Shown here: positions 31,275 to 60,900 of the stretch, piece by piece
How positions within the stretch are numbered: the stretch's first letter is position 1
How the letters are laid out: every line of letters begins with the position of its first letter
Assembly (NCBI GenBank): GCA_025526935.1
Contig: JAHLKD010000002.1
Span: 723,001 to 787,000 of the forward strand
Direction of reading: 5' to 3'
Length of the DNA stretch: 64,000 nt
From: Cladochytrium replicatum
Taxonomy: Eukaryota > Chytridiomycota > Chytridiomycetes > Cladochytriales > Cladochytriaceae
Program-made: the position numbers and the translations under genes
The notes under the pieces: model-generated
The model's input: the letters and a program-made list of their open reading frames with translations, nothing else
Told to the model about the DNA's origin: nothing
The model's database searches: none

Positions 31275-33543
31275 CTGGGAACCCTGGGCTTAATGTGGCA
31301 AGGGATGGCGCAGTAGAAGAAGCCATCTTCTGGTTTGGGAAGCAGGCAACAATTGCCATGTCTTCTATGAAAATTGAAGAATAACGAACACTCATTAACA
31401 TATTGGTAACCTCATGCAGTCTAAATGCTCTTCGATTTAATAGCCCTTCGATCCCACTGGCAACTGACTAACAAAACCATTGATCTCCACTAACAACATA
31501 TCGTCAAACAAATGAACCAATGTACAGATTATGGCTTCATCAGCTTAGAACCGAGTGCATCAGCAACAGTTCAGCGTGCATGCACTAAGTGGACGGAGAT
31601 TTGGTGAGCAAAGATGTGTCACCGACCACTACTCAGCTGATAGCAAACAGAGTGCCATGGCGATGAAGACATCGACAGGAGCCCCTCCTTTCGGAACCGC
31701 TGAGTCACAGAGGTCCGAGTCCATTGACGTAATTGGAATATGTGCAGTGGTGTGTCCATTGACGTAATTGGATTATTTGCATTGGTGGAACACCGATCAC
31801 CTCAACACATATTCAGGAGGCAAGTGATGGGATTATCTTCAATAGCCGATGCGCATAAGATCCAGCAGATTTTCCAGTGCAGATCGACCCGATGTAAGTT
31901 AAAAGATGGTCGTGCCGAAGTTCGACTGTCGATCCTTCGCAGGACTTGGCCCTATTCCCCTATTCCGTGTCTGACTCACTTGCGTGGCGAGAATATTGGC
32001 TGTTGTGGAAATTGGCATGTGAAAAAGGGGTCATTTTAATGCCATATCGGGCAGTGCTGTTTCACCCCCCAATGGCCGTCTTACATATTTGATAAGCTGT
32101 CTTCCATATCTGGAACCTTTGCTGCTCTCTGTTTCCCTGCTCGCTTTTCGGTCGTTCCTCATACACTCCAAGTTACAACATACCGATCGGACGGAGGATT
32201 GTCCTCCTATTTGACGAGTTCAGAAAACTGCAGAAGATTTGAAGCAGCGAATTGGACACAACTTTCCAATAATCGCGGCCAATAACACCACGAGGTGGGA
32301 ATTGCGGATCGAAATTCAGTGCTGGGGCGATTTGTGTGTCCCGCTGCTATCAATCACTTATCAAAACTCTGTTTTCAAAGATTTTCCACATCTGTTTCTG
32401 ATGCTATAAATCGACGGGCTCGAAACGTTGGTTGTCGCCTCCCATCAATTCTTATCTGTTGGATCCCAGCGGTAAGTGCCATCACGCCATCCCCCTTTTA
32501 TTCGTTCTATTTCCAACTCTGTGGTACAAAGAGTTCTTCCGGGATGGCGCAGTTTAAGGATAAGAGAACTTGGGCTGTGAAATAAGGTTGGCAAGGGACA
32601 GATGTGGATTGCACGGGTCAGGATCAGCGAGCGAAATCGTTCGAAATCATTCGTTGTGTGATGGAAGTCCTACAAAAGAGTGTTTGTGTCTCATCACCAG
32701 TGACCGTGATGTGTCAGTTGTGCACTTTTGGAGTGGCCAAAATTGTTATCGATCGCCTTTGCTTCAGTTGTGGGTGGCGTGCCAGATTGCATGTTGATAT
32801 ATTAAAAAAATGCCCGCTTTCCCACACTCTGATATGTTGTTCTTATTCTATGAGCACAGACCACCTGTCACCTGAACTGTCGCTGGGGGCCTCTTCGCCT
32901 ATTTGATCTGGCTGTGCTACTCCCTGCCCGAGACTCGGACGCTGTGCTGTGCTGTGCTGTGGTTGCTGCCCCCGTTTTGGTTTGGTTCGCTTTCCAATCG
33001 TCATTCATCGCCGTCACCTGAGCTTGCGAACGTCCCAAGTGAGTCATTTGCGGATCTGTTTACTTCGATCCACCACACTTCGTCTCCCTCTCCCTTTTTA
33101 GCCCCCTCTTCCACTTCCGCCCCCCCCCCAAGCCACCCTTCCCTGTCCAATGAGCTAATTTCAGCTTAAACCTGTCCCCCTTCCAATCTCCATTTCTTAG
33201 TCATCCCGGTGCTTTGCGATTCTGCCCTGATCCATTCCTTCCACCCAATCACTGTTGCCTGCTGACTGTCTGTCGCTTAAATATCTCCCCCCACACCATT
33301 ATTTCCCGCCTGTTTGCTCCGCCTTATCATGATTATGAGTACTTGCTCTCAACAACTAGGTCCCACACCCGGTGCCGGTGGTGGCTCTCCTCGAAGGCAC
33401 CGCCGTTCATCTTCGGCCAGTCGTGCATGTGCGTTTAGCTTTTGTTAGCTCACTCCCGAACAGACAACAGCACTCTTCAAAACCTTGTTTTAGCTTTCTT
33501 TATCATCAGAGACTGATCTCCTTACTCCCCTGTAGTGTCAGAC
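31275..33543. other. 2.2-kb gene-poor stretch, probable long 5' leader of the next gene
   Basis: No domain-bearing frame was found. It contains a 35-bp tandem repeat (31719-31788), a (GCTGT)-type microsatellite near 32940-32960, and increasingly pyrimidine-rich sequence from about 33000 to 33540. A TGTAG acceptor-like site sits just before the next start codon, so a 5'-untranslated intron is possible. Confidence 0.4.
31719..31788. repeat. two tandem 35-bp copies with CRE/ATF-like TGACGTAA
   Basis: Copies at 31719-31753 and 31754-31788 share GTCCATTGACGTAATTGGA and differ at about four of 35 positions. Each carries TGACGTAA, a known near-consensus site for CREB/ATF-type bZIP factors. The unit lies about 1.8 kb upstream of the glycogen-regulator start. 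Confidence 0.6.
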
Positions 33544-41276: not shown

Positions 41277-41433
41277 TTCCAACTTTTATCGATGATGTCA
41301 GTGGTCTTGTGTCAAGCGATCCAGCAGGGCCGCGTGTCAAAGCCACTGATTTGATGCTAGAGGACTCTCATCACAAAGCCACTGATTTGCTGCAAGAATT
41401 CCGTCATCACAAAGCCACTTACACCAATTCCAA
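41277..41433. promoter_or_regulatory. bidirectional promoter between PEX5 and TRS33
   Basis: Only 157 bp separate the two divergent start codons. The interval contains a 36-bp tandem repeat, so the repeat lies in the promoter or leader of one or both genes. No TATA box or factor site was assigned. Confidence 0.6.
41339..41419. repeat. 36-bp tandem repeat, 2.25 copies
   Basis: Copies at 41339-41374 and 41375-41410 begin AAAGCCACTGATTTG and end CATCAC. A third partial copy, AAAGCCACT, follows at 41411-41419. The central parts have diverged, while the first 15 and last 6 bases are identical. Confidence 0.85.
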
Positions 41434-50514: not shown

Positions 50515-52129
50515 TCATCGGTCGACTTCACCTATTTACCCAAAGTTCAGGAAAAAGTCAATGAGTAGAAATAGAGAAAACCTGTTAACTTACCGAACAC
50601 GATATCGCACGTTCCAATAATTGCGACGGTGTCAGCGAGGAAGTGGCCCTTGGCAAGGAAATCAATACCCGAGAGGTGGACAAATCCAGGAGGACGGATT
50701 TTGCATCGATATGGTTTGCTTGTGCCGTCGGACACGAGGTATACTCCGAACTCTCCCTTAGGGGCCTCAATAGCTGTGTATGTCTATGATGTAGCTTGCA
50801 TTAGCAAATAAGCCTAAGATCGTATGAGTTTTCGCTACCTCTCCGGGTGGTACCGAGAAACCTTCAGAATACAACTTGAAGTGGTGAATGAGAGCCTCCA
50901 TGGACTCCTTCATTGTCGCCCTAGGTGGTGGAACAATCTTGTTGTCATCCACTTTAACGGGCCCGCCGGGCATCTTGTTCAGGCACTGTTCAATGATCCT
51001 CAAGCTCTGGCGCATTTCCTCAACACGGCAGAGGTAACGGTCGTACGAGTCCCCGTTGACACCAATGGGAACATCAAACTCCATGTCACCGTAAGCATCG
51101 TAGGGCATCTCCTTCCTAAGATCCCATGCAATACCACTACCTCGAAGCATCACACCAGAGAAACCCCAGTCCAACGCCTGTTGAGCCGTGCACTTCCCGA
51201 CCCCAATAACACGGTTCTGCCAGATACGGTTCATCGACAGCGATTCGTCGAGTTCGTCGATACGGGCGGCAAACTGGGACGCCCACTTGTAAATGTCCTC
51301 CATCAGCCCAACAGGCATGTCGAGAGAGACACCACCGGGACGGACGTACGCGGCGTGCATACGAGCGCCGCACACGCGCTCATAGAACTCCATGAGCTTC
51401 TCACGCTCCTCAAACATCCACAAGAAGGGAGTGAGGGCTCCGACGTCCATGGCGTGGGTGGTGACGGCCATAATGTGGTTCAGAATACGGGTAATCTCTG
51501 CAAAGAGGGTTCGGATGTACTTTCCGCGAGCTGGGACCTCAATGTTGAGCAGTTTCTCGACTGCGAGGGAGTAGCACTGCTCGTTGCACATCATGGAGAC
51601 GTAGTCGAGACGGTCAAAGTACGGAAGAGCCTGCAAGTAGGTCTTGTACTCGATCAGTTTCTCGGTACCACGGTGAAGGAGACCAATGTGCGGGTCGGCA
51701 CGCAGAATGATTTCACCCTTCATCTCCAGAATCAATCGGAGCACACCATGGGCGGCAGGATGCTGGGGACCAAAGTTGACGGTAAAGGTTTCGACAGTTG
51801 GATCGTCGGCATCCACCTTAACCTCTGTGAATTGCTAACCATTTGAAATTGCTCTAAAGTAAGCGGTTTTGGGAAGTACCAATAGCGTCGACGAGCTGGC
51901 GAGCCTTCGGAGGAACAAACCAGCGGGTAGAAATCGAGTGAGTCTCCGGGTCGACAGAGCGCGAAGTGGGACGTTGGCTGTCGATGAGACTCGAATACAG
52001 GCGGGAGGTTGCCGGCAAGACCCGAGATGCAGACGCTGGAGTAGAAATTTTAGCAGCGGCAGCGGAGGGCGAGAGACCGGAGCGCAACAGCGAGAGCAGC
52101 GGGCGCTGCGACAGGCGAACGGACGACAT
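50515..52129 (-). CDS. NDUFS2: NADH:ubiquinone oxidoreductase 49-kDa subunit (complex I, NDUFS2)
   Basis: Core mitochondrial complex I subunit at the quinone site, encoded in the nucleus. Four exons. The N-terminus ([20 protein letters not shown] ...) is Arg/Ser-rich without acids, a mitochondrial presequence. The conserved body begins [18 protein letters not shown] and contains [69 protein letters not shown] and [20 protein letters not shown]. After an intron at about 50.8 kb come [26 protein letters not shown] and [20 protein letters not shown], ending VDR at the usual C-terminus. The last exon is only a few codons. The 340-codon open frame opposite this gene is an artefact of its codon use. 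Confidence 0.97.
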
Positions 52130-52216
52130 TTTTATATTTCTTACGAGGTGGACACTTTTAGTGCACGGGTCGAGAAATTGAACACGAAAGTTGTTGGAAC
52201 ATCGTGAAGATTGAAG

Positions 52217-54324
52217 ATGGGGAAGTGGACGGTAAATATAGCTGAAAGAAAGCGTATTGGAGCATGGAGAACTGACCGGCTATCCTTGTAGGATAAGGTA
52301 CGCACGCTACTATGAGGATTGTCTCGCTTGCCTTGCTTTGACTGACCATTCGCTGCCCTTTTCTTATTGTGCGGATAACATAACAGCTGGTGAGACTTTG
52401 ACCACAACTGTGTGGAACTAATAACTTACCTCCTACTATTTATCTCAGTATATCACGCACTCGGAATGGCAAACGGAGTTCGGGTAGGTGCGTGCAAGGA
52501 CGCTTACTTGTGAACTTACCCCTAACTGCTGGATACACTTAGAGGAGCAAAGAAGAAGGGTGCTGGATCGGAGTTCAAACGGCTCCCGTTCTATTGCTGT
52601 GCGCTTTCGATGCAACCATTGTCGAATCCGGTGTGCACAGATGACGGGACTTTGTTCGACCTACTTTACATTCTTCCTTGGCTCAAGAAGCATGGAAGTC
52701 ACCCGGTGACTGGCCAGCCACTGACTCGGTCGCAACTCTTCCCGGTCATCTTCCACAAAAATGCATCTGATGAGTACAACTGCCCGGTTACTTTCAAAGT
52801 ATTCTCTGAGCACTCCCATATTGTGGTGATCAAACCCACTGGGAACGTGTATTCTTATGAAGCTGTCGAGCGATTCAATGTGAAAGCAAAGAACTGGAAG
52901 GATTTGCTCACCGAAGAACCTTTTACTCGAGAAGACATTATAACCATTCAAAACCCACACGAGCTTTCGAAGCGCAACATCAACGAGTTCGACTTTGTGA
53001 AAAAGGAATTGGACATTGTCGCCCCTGATAAGGTGTCGTCAACCAAAACTGAGGGCGGATCCATCAAGAACAGCAAGGGAACACTCGGAAGGGTTCTTGA
53101 TGAGATGGGGGTAGCGAAGACCAAGACCATATTGACGCCTTCGTTTGTTGATTCGGCGGCTGCGAAACCGCATAATGCTGCGCAATATTCAAACGGAATA
53201 GCGGGTGCATCCTTCACCTCGACCTCTCTTACGCCCCAATCAGTCAATAAAGCGGCGATGCTGACAGAAGAAGAGTATGTGCTTGAGAATTTCCCATCGT
53301 GGAAGGGCCCCGAAGCAGAAGAGATGAGAGGAAAGGACGGAAAGAAGAACAAACGGCCAGTGAAGGACTATGGAGGAAAGGGCTACGCTCGAATATCAAC
53401 GAATTTGGGCGATATCAATATCGAGCTCTTTTGTCGTGATACCCCGAGGACATGCTATAACTTTCTGATGCTTGCGAAGAAAGGTGATCAATCACGTTTT
53501 GACCCCACACCCGATGTTTGCTGAACGCCCCTTCAGGCTATTACAACAATGTTCAATTCCATCGTCTGATTAAAGATTTTATGATCCAAGGCGGTGACCC
53601 AACGGGAACGGGGAAGGGCGGCACATCAATTTGGGGAGAAAAGTTCGGTGATGAGTGGAAGAATAACCTGAAACACGAAGGTCCCGGTGTACTCAGTATG
53701 GCTAATAGTGGTCCGAATACAAATGGTTCCCAATTGTGAGTATTGTTTGTTGTCACAACTCAACACTGTCCTAATCTTTCAATTTCGTTGGGCAGCTTTA
53801 TTACCTTTAAGTCTTGTCCCCATCTCGATGGCAAGCACACTGTTTTCGGAAAAGGTGAGTAACCACGTCTTATGATCCTCCCACTCTTGCGCAATAATGA
53901 GTTTAATATAGTTGTCGGAGGATATGAAACGCTGAATACGATTCAAACTGTGAAAACAGATGCAAAAGACCGTCCGAAGGTAATTATTCTGTAATATAAG
54001 TGTTGCATGATGGATCACTTGAACTTGTATCAACAGCCTCCGATCACCGTCTTGGAAATACAGATATTCTCCGATCCCATTGCTGACTTTGCGAATGCAC
54101 TGAAGGCTCGCCAAGAGACTCTCGGTCATACACAACCTGGAAATGTTTCGACAGCTGGCACTGGGCATGTCGGGGTGCAGCTGAACAGTAATGACGACAC
54201 GGTGGGAAAGTATTTGAAACAGAGGAAAAGGGAGGCTGCGGATGAAGTTGAGTCGAAAGTGGACTTGAGCACATCAAAAAGGCCCAAAACATCAAAAGGT
54301 TTCGGCGACTTTTCGGGGTGGTAA
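52217..54324 (+). CDS. PPIL2: spliceosomal U-box cyclophilin Ppil2 (Cyp8/Cyp60-type)
   Basis: Peptidyl-prolyl isomerase with an N-terminal U-box (E3 ligase fold). Nine exons give 537 residues in frame. The 5' end is cut into 15, 6, 3 and 35-nt exons (52217-52231, 52292-52297, 52387-52389, 52449-52483), which together encode [20 protein letters not shown], the standard family N-terminus. The U-box follows ([20 protein letters not shown], then DDGTLFDLL ... LPWLKKHG ... [12 protein letters not shown]). The cyclophilin domain starts [20 protein letters not shown] and contains [40 protein letters not shown] and [17 protein letters not shown]. The C-terminus is a basic tail. It starts 88 bp from the divergent complex I gene, and its stop is 41 bp before the next start. 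Confidence 0.95.
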
Positions 54325-54365
54325 ATAATAAAAGCTGTGGCTTCGTTCGCGACTTCATCAAACAA

Positions 54366-57300
54366 ATGCCTCCTCCCTCTCCAAGGAAAAGCTTGGACTT
54401 ATCGGCGCTTCTCGCGTCTGTCCAATTAGACCGTGATATCAGCACTGACGGTCCATCTCTATGGCAGATGAAATTTAATAAGCCTTCATCTGCTCGTCAC
54501 AAAGTTGATCCACTTGATTATGAGGATAGTTTCTCGTCGCCGAAGCTCGACTCAAGGACACTCACGTTCTCCAACGAATGGGATGACGAAAGACCACGTT
54601 TTGGAGCAATTGAAAGCTCTGAAGTCGACTCATGGATATCACCTTCCGAGACCATCAACTTTCATAATATGGTGCTTGAGCAAGAGTGTGAAGGAATCAC
54701 TGAAGGTAGTGTTTAAATATCAAATAAACCCGTCTAGCGTGCTCATTGTATTGTGTTCAATAGCTCGTTCACTGCTCCGCCAATGGATTGACAATACACC
54801 GGATCCCATGGACGACGTGTCTTTGGAGCTGAAAGCAAAGTTAGGACGATGTATTGAGGACCCGTCGGTATCTGTATGGAGTTCCAATGCTGTAAAAGAC
54901 CTCTATTCCGGATCATCTGCGAAAAAATTCGGATCCGCTAGAGTCGGAAATGAAGAAGTGAAGGCAGAGGTGAAGGAATTTCTTGAGAGAGCGATTGGAT
55001 CTGCAGTAAATAAGGTACAGCGCTCAAGCCCGTATGTTTCGGCTTTCACTCATGTGCAATGGTAGACTGTCAAAGCATCTGCTCGTAAACGCAACGCAGA
55101 CCCTCGCTTGGCTATGGACGCACGACAGATCCTTGCGAAGGAGAGACGAGAGAAAATGGAATTTTTTCGTCGAAATGAGATTGAGAAGAGATTGCAAGAA
55201 AAGGCTCAAAAGGCGGAAGAGGAACGAATCAGGAAGGACCAAATGCGTCGCTGGTAGAGTCGTCAAAAATAAGTCTTAAGATATTCAATGATTTAATGGG
55301 ATACGTTCCAGCATTCGAGAGGAAATCGATGAAAAGCTAAGATCCGAACTAATTGAGCGAGCTGCAAAAATTCAAGTCGAGATGGAAGTGTGTCAAGCAA
55401 AGGCATCCGGTGCAGCTGTGCATATTCGAGCGGCGGATGAAGTTAATAAAGCTGTCAAGTTTGTTATCGAAAGTATTGAGTTCACTTTGTGCTGCGTTGC
55501 TCAAGTGCTGCTTAAAGGTCAGCAATCTTGGAAGAAGATCGAGTGAGGCAAGAGAAAGAGCTAGAGAAACGCAAATTGATGAGAGAGGCTCGATTTGAAT
55601 GTGCAGCCGATAAGTTGGTATCCATAGTTCGTCTCAGACAAATGCGAGTACGCATATGAGGTTTTGTACAGTGTCAATTTCTGAAGAGATTATTTTAGGC
55701 CTGTTTCAGCGGATGGCATATGATCATTCTTGATTTCCGTCTAAAGACTGAAAGGCTTCAGGTTAGTTGACAACATAAAACAAAAATCTGAAGCACCAAT
55801 TGTGTTAAGGTTATTCAACATTGGAGGAGACTCTGTTGCAATTGGAGCAGATGGCGCTCCACCGTGAAGAAGAGAATTGCGAGAAGGTACCGCTTTAATA
55901 TGTAATGACTTCGTGGCATCCATTGACTGACGGCGGTTGATCAAACAGAGAATCAGAATATCGCGCTATGGAGCTCAAGATTGAGCAGGAGAAGCTGGTT
56001 CGGTCCATGCGAGTCCATCGCACCAATGTGCTTTCAAAGCATTTCGTTGCTTGGCGTGCTTGGGTCAAACTTGAACGTAAATCTTGGCTTTGACATAATC
56101 ACATCCAAGTACTACAACTGTGCTTAACAGAGCAGGAGCGTGAACTAAGATACAAGCATCGGGAGCGAACTTTGAAGATGCAGCAATTCCTCGAATTTGT
56201 TGAGGCGACCGCCCTCTGTTCAAGCTATGAGATTCAGTCAGAACATGGCACCGCGACTAGCATGGTTGGAAAAGAGGACCTTTCAACAATCACTGCAATC
56301 GACGAGTCAAAGCTGAACGAGGATCTTCCAGAAAGCCCCGACGTTGGAAAAGTTGCCCCTCAAACACCATCTGACCCAGTGATGAACACACCTACCACAA
56401 CAAATGGATTTGGTTTCGTCCACCAAGATCTTATCGGCGAAACAATTGGGGTTGATCGCGGTGGTGATCATTCTATCGGCAAGCCGGCATTCTACCCACC
56501 TACTATCAGGCCAAAGAAGAAGCCTCACTCTGCAAGAAGCAAACACGATGAACAGTTGATAAGACGTACGTAAAAGATCAGTTTATAGAGTGACGTCTTA
56601 AACAAATCTATCCCAGGAATGGAGGAGCGGGATACTCAACGTCGCGCTCGAAGGGCCGAGATAGAAGCCAAAAAACAAGAAAAGAAAAAAGCACTCGAGG
56701 TAATCACACAGATGACAAAGTTGCTTTCAAAGGTAACTTCTAAGTTCCAACAACAGAAACAGCAACGCGAGGAAGAAGAGAGAAAGAAAAAGGAAGAGGA
56801 GAGGGAGCGAGAGGAGCTTCTGCAAAAATATCAAGAGCAGCAGAGACAAGCCATAGAGGTTTGTTACCCGATCTCTGTTCTGAAACCCTTCGTGATTGAG
56901 ATCTTATATAAAGGCTGAGAAGAAAAAGGGAGAAGAAAGACAAAGACATCTTGAACTCGTTAAAAGGGCTGTAAACCATCGCCAGCTTCATCTGTTACGA
57001 CGCTGTGGATTCTTTCCGTGGAAGCGATTTGTATTCGGCACTTTGGTCAATCAGCTCTCAGATGCGACAAAACAAAGCTTTCTCAATCAAATTCAGAGCT
57101 GTTGGATTACATGGGGCAGAAGATTAGAAACGAAGCGCCGTGCAAGAGAACAATTGGCATTATCATTGTGGGCAGAGAAAGTTAACAAAGAGTCTGTATC
57201 TCTCTGGAGACAGGTGATTTTGAAGCAAGATCGGTTCTGGCTGACTTAACGAATCTCTCGTTCCAAGAAACTATCATCAATCAAACGTTCCCAACTGATC

Positions 57301-57954: not shown

Positions 57955-60900
57955 CTACTCGATCAGCTTAGATAGGGAAGCCAAGCTGCTCTTGCTGGAG
58001 CTCGATAACACCTCTCCACTTGACATGTATGATGAAATCTCTCCTATCGAATAGCTGCCGCTACTGCGTGATGATGGTGCCTTCCTCCAAACACGATTTC
58101 CACGGCTATGAACATCGGCTCGTAGGCTTGGAAAGTTATTCTCGTCCGCTGGATCAACAAATGACGGATATTTTGTTCTCACTAAGCGATGCAGTCGATC
58201 AAAGTCAGCACTCGGAAAGCGCGAATGCGGAAGGTGAACTTCTCCCTCGCTGAATTGAAATGAGAAGCGAAAGCACAAAAAGGGTTTTCTCAAACCTTAT
58301 TGATCCTCTTAGTTCCCCTAATTCACGAGCACTATTTTCAAATTGAGCAAAGTCGACAATCTCCCCTTCACTATGAATGAAATAAGACGATCCATTCTGA
58401 CAGAAGAGAGCAAGCCAACCTTAGGACAGTATTGATCAATCCACTTAGTTCGCCTTCGGACAATATCGACGAGAGTGTTATTTCCGATTCAGATGACCGC
58501 AGGAGCGATCGGCTGGACATTTTGGACGGCGTTTGCGTGCGTTGGCTAACCTGAACCGATACGGACGCAAGGGCCTTTAAAACGGTTATTAGAAGCAAGA
58601 GATTCAGAGGTGGCCGCACAAACCGCAGGAAGCGGAGCTGGAGGAGGGGATGGTGGAGGAGATGGTGCATCAGTGTTCGTGGTTGCAACAGTGGTGCGCA
58701 ACATTCTCTTTTGAGCTGCCACTCGGAGCGCGTCGTGCTGTGTGAGTCGCCAACGATATTCTTGCTCAAGTAGTAGCCGTGTCTTGCCCGCTTCTATCTC
58801 CATCTGCGCTCTCATTGATTCCCATTGCAAAGTTCTAGCTTCCTTTTGCTCCTTAAGCACATTCTCTAGAGTTTCATGCATTTGCGCCCGCTCTTGGTCG
58901 AGCCGAGCGATACGGTCCGTTAGCTCCCCAAGCTGCTTCAAAGCTAACTCCTTTTCTTTCCTCGCAACATGAACGTCATGATGTAGCCTCTTTTCATGCG
59001 TTTCGCGTAGCTTTCCGAGCTCTTCGAGTAGTCGTTTGCGCTCCGCTTCGCTCTCCTGTTGTCTGGCCACATCTCGAGCAAACATTTCCTCAGTTCGCTT
59101 TCGCGCAAACTCCGCCTCCAAGCTCTCTCTTCGGATGCGAGCCAATGTCTCCTCTGCCTGAGCTTCACGATACACCTCGCGAACCACTTCAACAAATAGG
59201 TTGCTCACCATTTGATCGAAGATCAGCTCTGTGAAAGACAAAAATAATGGATCCGGCTTCTTCACTCCATCTTGTTCCTTGCTTGGATCGGTATTGATTC
59301 CTACAAATCCTGCTTTAGCCCGATCTTAGTTGTAAAAACTGTACAGCTCACCAACTGTAACTGTGGCAGGCTTTTCGTTTGGGGGAGGAATGACATCTTT
59401 GACTTTGCTCTCGTTTGCAGTTTCCTCAGGAAGAACACAAATGAGCACCTCTCGATCCTTCCATTCTGGATTATCCAGAAGTCCGTAATACTTCTCGACA
59501 CTGAAGTCGATCAATCAAACGAGCATCAAGTTGCTAATCAAATACCGACTCCGACTGTCCCTGAGTGATGACCTTCGGAGGGTTACTTGTACTTTCAGCT
59601 TCGAAATCAGACTGAACTCCAACGTTCTTTTAAAGCTTAAGTATGTAAAAAGATGTCCGATACATTTCGTAAACCTTCATGGCTCCCTCGTGCTGAACTC
59701 CTCGTGACTGGAGAGGGTCAAAAATGGCGAATAATACCATTCAGATTTCCGATGTACCTTCCAATCAACAGTGCTTTGAATAGATTTTTCCTTAAGAAGA
59801 AGATATCAGGAAAGACTCGAATGGCGTTATGAAGAGGAATACCTTGGATTTTATGGACACAAATGTTGAGGCATCCTTTTGAACAGTTGGGGAGTTTCAG
59901 TTTATGAGAGCCTGAGAAAAGTGGACTCACTCGGGAGATTTTCAGGGGTGGAGGACTCATTTGCACACCTTCATCCTGAGTTGGACAGAGTGAGTTTAGT
60001 CCACCAACCATTTTCCTATGATTTACCTTCACGACAATGCTCTTCTGCTCGAAGATTGGCGGATCTTCTTTCACTTCATCTGAGGGTGATGGTACATTAA
60101 CGCGTCAACATCATGTAGCGATCGATACCGCACCTTCGTAACAAATCGGGGAAATCTGTGTACCCTGACTTTGTAGCATTGGGTGAGTCTGGGTGCCCTC
60201 GTCTACAAAACTTAAGTTCGTACTTGATCTTTTAGAAACAGAACAATTCTCACCCCTTCCAGTTTCCATACGTATAGGAGTTCGTAATATAGGTACTGGA
60301 GTGGGGGGGTTGATCCTCCTAAGAAACGGTGGTGTAAATAATACTATGAATATCTTCATGGCGATCAAACCTCTCCCTTTCTCGAGATTCACTGTGTCTC
60401 CGTTCTCGTTCCCATGATTCACTGCGACGGTGGGGATATGGGGTTCTGTGTACGTCCTTTGGTCCAGGCGTATCCATGTGCAGATCCGGGGGTCGAATAG
60501 TTGTTCGCCTCAAAAATACAGGGGCATTAGATAATCGCACATTGTAGAAGTTTGGCGGCCGGAGTGGTGATGTTGGCCGTTTCGCCGGTTGCGGTGGATT
60601 GTCGATTGATTGCTCCTTCATCGACGTGCCAGATCTGGCGCGAGACTGGCGCTTGAGAAAATTTTTCCGCTTGAGCGGCTTAAGATAGCTCTTTGGTCCG
60701 CCATCTGATCGTTGTTTGCCTGGTGTTGGAGGAATTCTGAAGCAGAATGAGCGATAGTTGTTCCTCGCGCTATCTTGTATTACCCAAGCAAAAGTTCGGA
60801 TGCATTTTCGATAAAACTTGTGTCTGATCTTGGGACCAGCTGCCGTGGTTTGCTGTGTGAACCATCTTGGCTCGACTTTTGATACGCCGATTCGTCAACT

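Follow-up and report, generated by a model that had tools for sequence, protein, structure and literature searches.

A probable constitutive 3-nt microexon, preceded by a 6-nt exon, in a fungal PPIL2 gene

Small exons are already known in fungi, and the PPIL2 gene described here probably adds a new and real instance; exons as small as its 3-nt CTG exon are rare. In the CYP621A P450 genes of Fusarium, a 1-nt exon has been confirmed by RNA reads from two species, with 20 orthologues (PMC12940212). The bglA genes of Sirobasidium magnum and Rhodotorula minuta are reported to have minimum exons of 5 and 6 bp and mean introns of 59–81 bp (PMC9142197), and the shortest exon reported for the P450 genes of Phanerochaete is 6 bp, with introns of 45–55 bp frequent (PMC1184071). 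Gene-finding programs are reported to miss exons of this size often (PMC12940212), so that conserved proteins may carry annotations with missing starts.

The locus lies in a 64,000-nt stretch of Cladochytrium replicatum DNA (the window, to which all positions refer), in which an initial annotation had proposed that a PPIL2 gene begins with exons of 15, 6, 3 and 35 nt. Like the Fusarium CYP621A exon, the 3-nt CTG exon was deduced from a conserved motif that is not assembled without it, and both are embedded, with canonical AG/GT flanks, in an apparently single long intron, which in Fusarium measures 139 nt, more than twice the median (PMC12940212). The Fusarium exon is 1 nt long, essential for the reading frame and backed by orthologues and RNA (PMC12940212), whereas the PPIL2 exon is 3 nt long, dispensable for the frame and known from genome sequence. 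The remark in the initial annotation that such an exon is near the minimum known is true of a length of 3 nt, but a shorter fungal exon, of 1 nt and confirmed by RNA, has been published (PMC12940212). As in the basidiomycete bglA and P450 genes, which are intron-rich with tiny exons and short introns, PPIL2 combines small exons with short introns, and its 6-nt exon equals theirs in size; its 3-nt exon is shorter than their minima, and the genes are different ones (PMC9142197, PMC1184071).

A direct search of the open-licence literature returned no report of a 3-nt microexon in fungi, and we found no report there of the PPIL2 microexon or its N-terminal motif. In animals, neural microexons often lie between long introns. 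They measure 3–15 nt, are mostly a multiple of three in length and keep the frame when skipped, as does the PPIL2 CTG; they are described as tightly regulated and mainly neural, whereas CTG sits among short introns (PMC13149111). Stwintrons resemble the PPIL2 arrangement in that introns lying close together or nested are spliced consecutively under intron definition (PMC6616335). Introns 2 and 3 of PPIL2 were considered as a stwintron and rejected as such: their GT and AG signals are complete, separated by CTG, and none is interrupted.

The identification of the gene as PPIL2 was borne out by both domain content and overall similarity. Nine exons at positions 52217–54324 (+) encode a fungal PPIL2 of 537 aa that combines a U-box with a cyclophilin domain. 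The spliced and translated coding sequence is open over 1614 nt (537 codons and a stop), has the C-terminus FGDFSGW and ends at 54324. A phmmer search of the PDB with the first 333 residues matched human PPIL2 at E = 1.3e-76, aligning residues 5–263 and 298–333 of this N-terminal query, a likeness that extends beyond single domains; the fungal and human proteins are 51% identical over 178 columns. Pfam detected an N-terminal U-box (31.8 bits; cutoff 21.4) and a C-terminal cyclophilin domain, Pro_isomerase (188.9 bits; cutoff 21.7), the last 204 residues having been compared against Pfam only. Searched as protein and as DNA, the same genome gave one place each and no second PPIL2 copy. No relative was confirmed among 49 and 67 pattern-matching stretches of genome_contigs, a prokaryotic collection not expected to hold fungi, nor among 2 and 159 such stretches of viral_contigs, which is not expected to hold fungal genes. 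Human PPIL2 is reported to be abundant in the Bact spliceosome, with a U-box that is active in vitro (PMC6315705).

Re-reading, splicing and translating the sequence reproduced the coordinates and letters of the 15-, 6-, 3- and 35-nt exons given in the initial annotation. Exon 1 (52217–52231, +; 15 nt) reads ATGGGGAAGTGGACG and encodes MGKWT from the start codon; it is part of the best of the 21 structures described below, and its MGK corresponds to human PPIL2 residues 1–3. Intron 1 (52232–52291, +; 60 nt, GTAAAT...TTGTAG) has its donor at the 61st, its acceptor at the 56th and its branch match at the 19th percentile of 242 reference introns. Exon 2 (52292–52297, +) is the 6-nt microexon GATAAG, encoding a DK that is identical in human PPIL2. 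The following intron 2 (52298–52386, +; 89 nt, GTACGC...TAACAG) is long for this genome, at the 95.9th percentile, with its donor at the 71st and its acceptor at the 54th. Exon 3 (52387–52389, +) is the 3-nt microexon CTG, encoding a Leu opposite the Met of human DKMYIT; AACAG precedes it and GTGAGA follows it, as first described. Intron 3 (52390–52448, +; 59 nt, GTGAGA...TCTCAG) has its donor at the 54th, its acceptor at the 67th and its branch match at the 18th percentile, the best branch-site match being AACTAAT, 28 nt from the 3' end. Introns 1–3 are thus all GT-AG. Exon 4 (52449–52483, +; 35 nt) comprises 11 codons and two bases of a Gly codon, and its YIT and the E of its SEW are identical in human PPIL2.

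Downstream, intron 4 (52484–52542, +; 59 nt) ends in a weak acceptor at 52542 (4th percentile). Exon 5 (52543–53483, +) encodes the U-box and linker, as indicated by the Pfam U-box match and the human PPIL2 alignment. Most of the cyclophilin domain (Pfam Pro_isomerase) and the C-terminus are encoded by exons 6–9 (53537–53735, 53796–53854, 53912–53979 and 54037–54324, all +), which are preceded by introns of 53, 60, 57 and 57 nt, respectively.

Site strengths were assessed with donor, acceptor, branch and length models trained on 242 introns that were predicted, not transcript-verified, in 264 kb of this genome. These self-trained models started from a fungal consensus, and predicted genes overlapping 52100–54400 were left out. 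The predicted reference introns have a median of 55 nt and a 5th–95th percentile range of 48–72 nt (n = 242), a distribution that partly depends on the starting length prior, as a flat prior moves the 75th percentile to 128 nt. With the flat prior, the predictor also loses the PPIL2 exon at 53796–53854, which lies inside the Pfam cyclophilin match. The trained branch motif is loose, and branch scores were therefore given little weight.

The acceptor and donor of the CTG exon are canonical and each stand at the 54th percentile of the 242 predicted introns. Between 52180 and 52599, three of the 19 listed acceptor-like sites reach the reference median, namely 52291, 52386 and 52448, which are those of introns 1–3. 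Five of the 18 listed donor-like sites do so (52232, 52298, 52390, 52484 and 52488), and all except 52488 belong to introns 1–4 of the microexon model. Intron 2 shows no sign of a special RNA structure, folding no better than its own shuffles (z = 0.95). No repeats were found in 52130–52560; elsewhere in the window, 31719–31787 and 41338–41419 contain short tandem repeats (35 and 36 nt, about two copies each).

Free gene prediction from codon usage, run without homology, omits exons 1–4, starts at 52610 and runs into the next gene as far as 56918, so homology had to be added. The gene predictor also placed three successive 33-nt exons at window positions 59675–59875 (−), a model that may be wrong.

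Candidate 5' structures were enumerated from any ATG in 52130–52560 to exon 5, allowing up to six exons and introns of 35–260 nt and requiring minimum site scores; 21 structures exist within these limits. When splice terms and similarity to human PPIL2 were scored together, the annotated 15/6/3/35 chain came out on top at 11.4, followed by the structures that skip CTG (7.7), GATAAG (7.0) or both (6.4). The fifth-ranked structure reached −6.7, far below the top four, which firmly places exons 1 and 4; the top four differ in which microexons they include. The preference for the 15/6/3/35 structure stems wholly from homology and not from the splice terms. Including CTG rather than skipping it gains 3.8 nats, all from homology, and by splice terms alone the full model (−9.7) is slightly surpassed by each of the alternatives with fewer microexons (−8.98, −9.3 and −8.86).

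The human PPIL2 N-terminus is MGKRQHQKDKMYIT, and that of the fungal protein, with all four small exons, is MGKWTDKLYIT. The two sequences share D, K, Y, I and T, and the column of CTG pairs a fungal Leu with a human Met; skipping CTG removes this column from the fungal protein. In this one relative, from which the whole homology term derives, the residue encoded by CTG is conserved as a conservative difference and not as an identity. Other fungal and plant PPIL2 proteins probably also have Leu or Met in this column. We searched 52298–52448 for inserts with AG before and GT or GC after, leaving roughly 20 nt or more for each flanking intron. Only two inserts are in frame and free of stops: CTG, with an acceptor score of 3.56 and a donor score of 4.92, and a 15-nt exon encoding TLTTT, whose sites are poor (−2.62 and 2.2). 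This upholds the earlier statement that the Leu cannot be encoded otherwise from the neighbouring sequence.

The first alternative to consider is that there is no 3-nt exon, that 52298–52448 is a single 151-nt intron and that the sites in AACAG-CTG-GTGAGA are paired by chance, with one residue lost from the protein (MGKWTDK-YITHSEW). Translation confirmed the earlier observation that skipping CTG keeps the frame open. The splice terms of the single intron are marginally better than those with the microexon (−8.98 vs −9.7), and 8 of the 242 predicted introns reach at least 151 nt. The length of this apparent intron had been a candidate line of evidence for the microexon and was rejected, as the 89-nt intron is nearly as rare (10 of 242 reference introns reach at least 89 nt). 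Since 89 nt and 151 nt are both unusual in this genome, intron length was counted as neutral. However, a single intron would drop a residue within a motif that is otherwise common to human PPIL2, and sites this good are seldom found exactly 3 nt apart. Acceptor/3-nt/donor triplets at least as strong as that of CTG number 6 in 528,000 strand-bases of the genome, its own included, which gives an expectation of 0.0017 per 151 nt whatever the codon; one of the six holds a Leu codon and none holds Met. On this evidence a single 151-nt intron appears improbable.

Two further controls replaced the sequence around CTG. Of 3000 shuffles of the interior of 52298–52448, 54 gave some positive gain and 2 produced an inserted exon equal to or better than CTG; in neither case was this a 3-nt exon encoding Leu or Met. 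Random genomic 137-mer fillers, which were sampled with replacement from 264 kb and are not independent, matched the CTG gain with any exon in 101 of 30,000 cases, by means of a 3-nt exon in 7 and of one encoding Leu or Met in 2. The 6-nt exon was matched by exons of any length in 263 of 30,000 fillers and by an exon no longer than 6 nt in 1.

From the letters, the splice sites, the frame and the homology to human PPIL2, we infer that 52387–52389 is very probably a genuine 3-nt exon of the fungal PPIL2 gene and is ordinarily included. The initial annotation had called such an exon hard for exon-definition models. This puzzle is misplaced, because the prevailing view is that fungal splice sites are paired across introns: one survey, covering 42 eukaryotes, makes the case that fungi, basidiomycetes among them, mostly use intron definition (PMC2397502), and work on stwintrons in Ascomycota basically takes the nearest sites as the pair (PMC6616335). 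In PPIL2, where the introns are short, the spliceosome would pair the sites across each one, so that the introns of 60, 89 and 59 nt could be recognised singly and taken out successively. Simultaneous binding of the intron 2 acceptor and the intron 3 donor, which lie 3 nt apart, would then be unnecessary. U1 bound to the donor that follows CTG would cover the 3-nt exon, and introns 2 and 3 would therefore have to go one after the other; once one of them was out, the remaining site would lie next to a longer exon. Introns 1–3 would be recognised under intron definition without bridging the exon, inclusion would be the default and the PPIL2 product would retain the hydrophobic residue of DK-(L/M)-YIT. 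Successive exons of 6 and 3 nt in a spliceosome protein would provide a clean natural substrate for the question of minimum exon length under cross-intron pairing, and they overturn no model.

The CTG exon could also be real but alternatively included, its skipping yielding a PPIL2 one residue shorter, perhaps as a regulatory switch. An exon of 3 nt preserves the frame and the CTG sites are of median strength. A regulated fungal microexon has been reported in Trichoderma Xlr2 by authors who describe functional microexons as new to filamentous fungi (PMC11121469). Yet the residue is hydrophobic in human PPIL2 too, and Leu here with Met in the human protein argues for constant inclusion. Furthermore, errors under intron definition are reported to be mainly retained introns (PMC2397502), and by translation a retained intron 1, 2 or 3 brings an in-frame stop into PPIL2. 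We consider alternative inclusion very unlikely. More speculatively, the microexon could have a feedback role: the hard-to-splice CTG exon would act as a sensor of splicing fidelity, with skipping costing PPIL2, a protein of the activating spliceosome, a conserved residue and so tying the state of the spliceosome to its composition, an idea to which we give only a slight chance.

That both microexons are spurious is barely credible, whether 52232–52448 forms one 217-nt intron, giving MGKWT-YITHSEW, or the 5' end lies elsewhere: the 217-nt intron gives the best structure without an internal exon below 9 nt and has slightly better splice terms (−8.86 vs −9.7), but it lies 5 nats below the full model and loses DK and Leu, while structures not using the modelled exons 1 and 4 score at least 18 nats under the best and just 87 nt separate the PPIL2 ATG from the predicted start of the divergent gene.

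That neighbour encodes the 49-kDa subunit of respiratory complex I (Pfam Complex1_49kDa). It is on the minus strand, with a predicted start at 52129, and lies head to head with PPIL2 across window positions 52127–52219. Given that the two start codons are 87 nt apart, PPIL2 and the complex I gene likely share a promoter.
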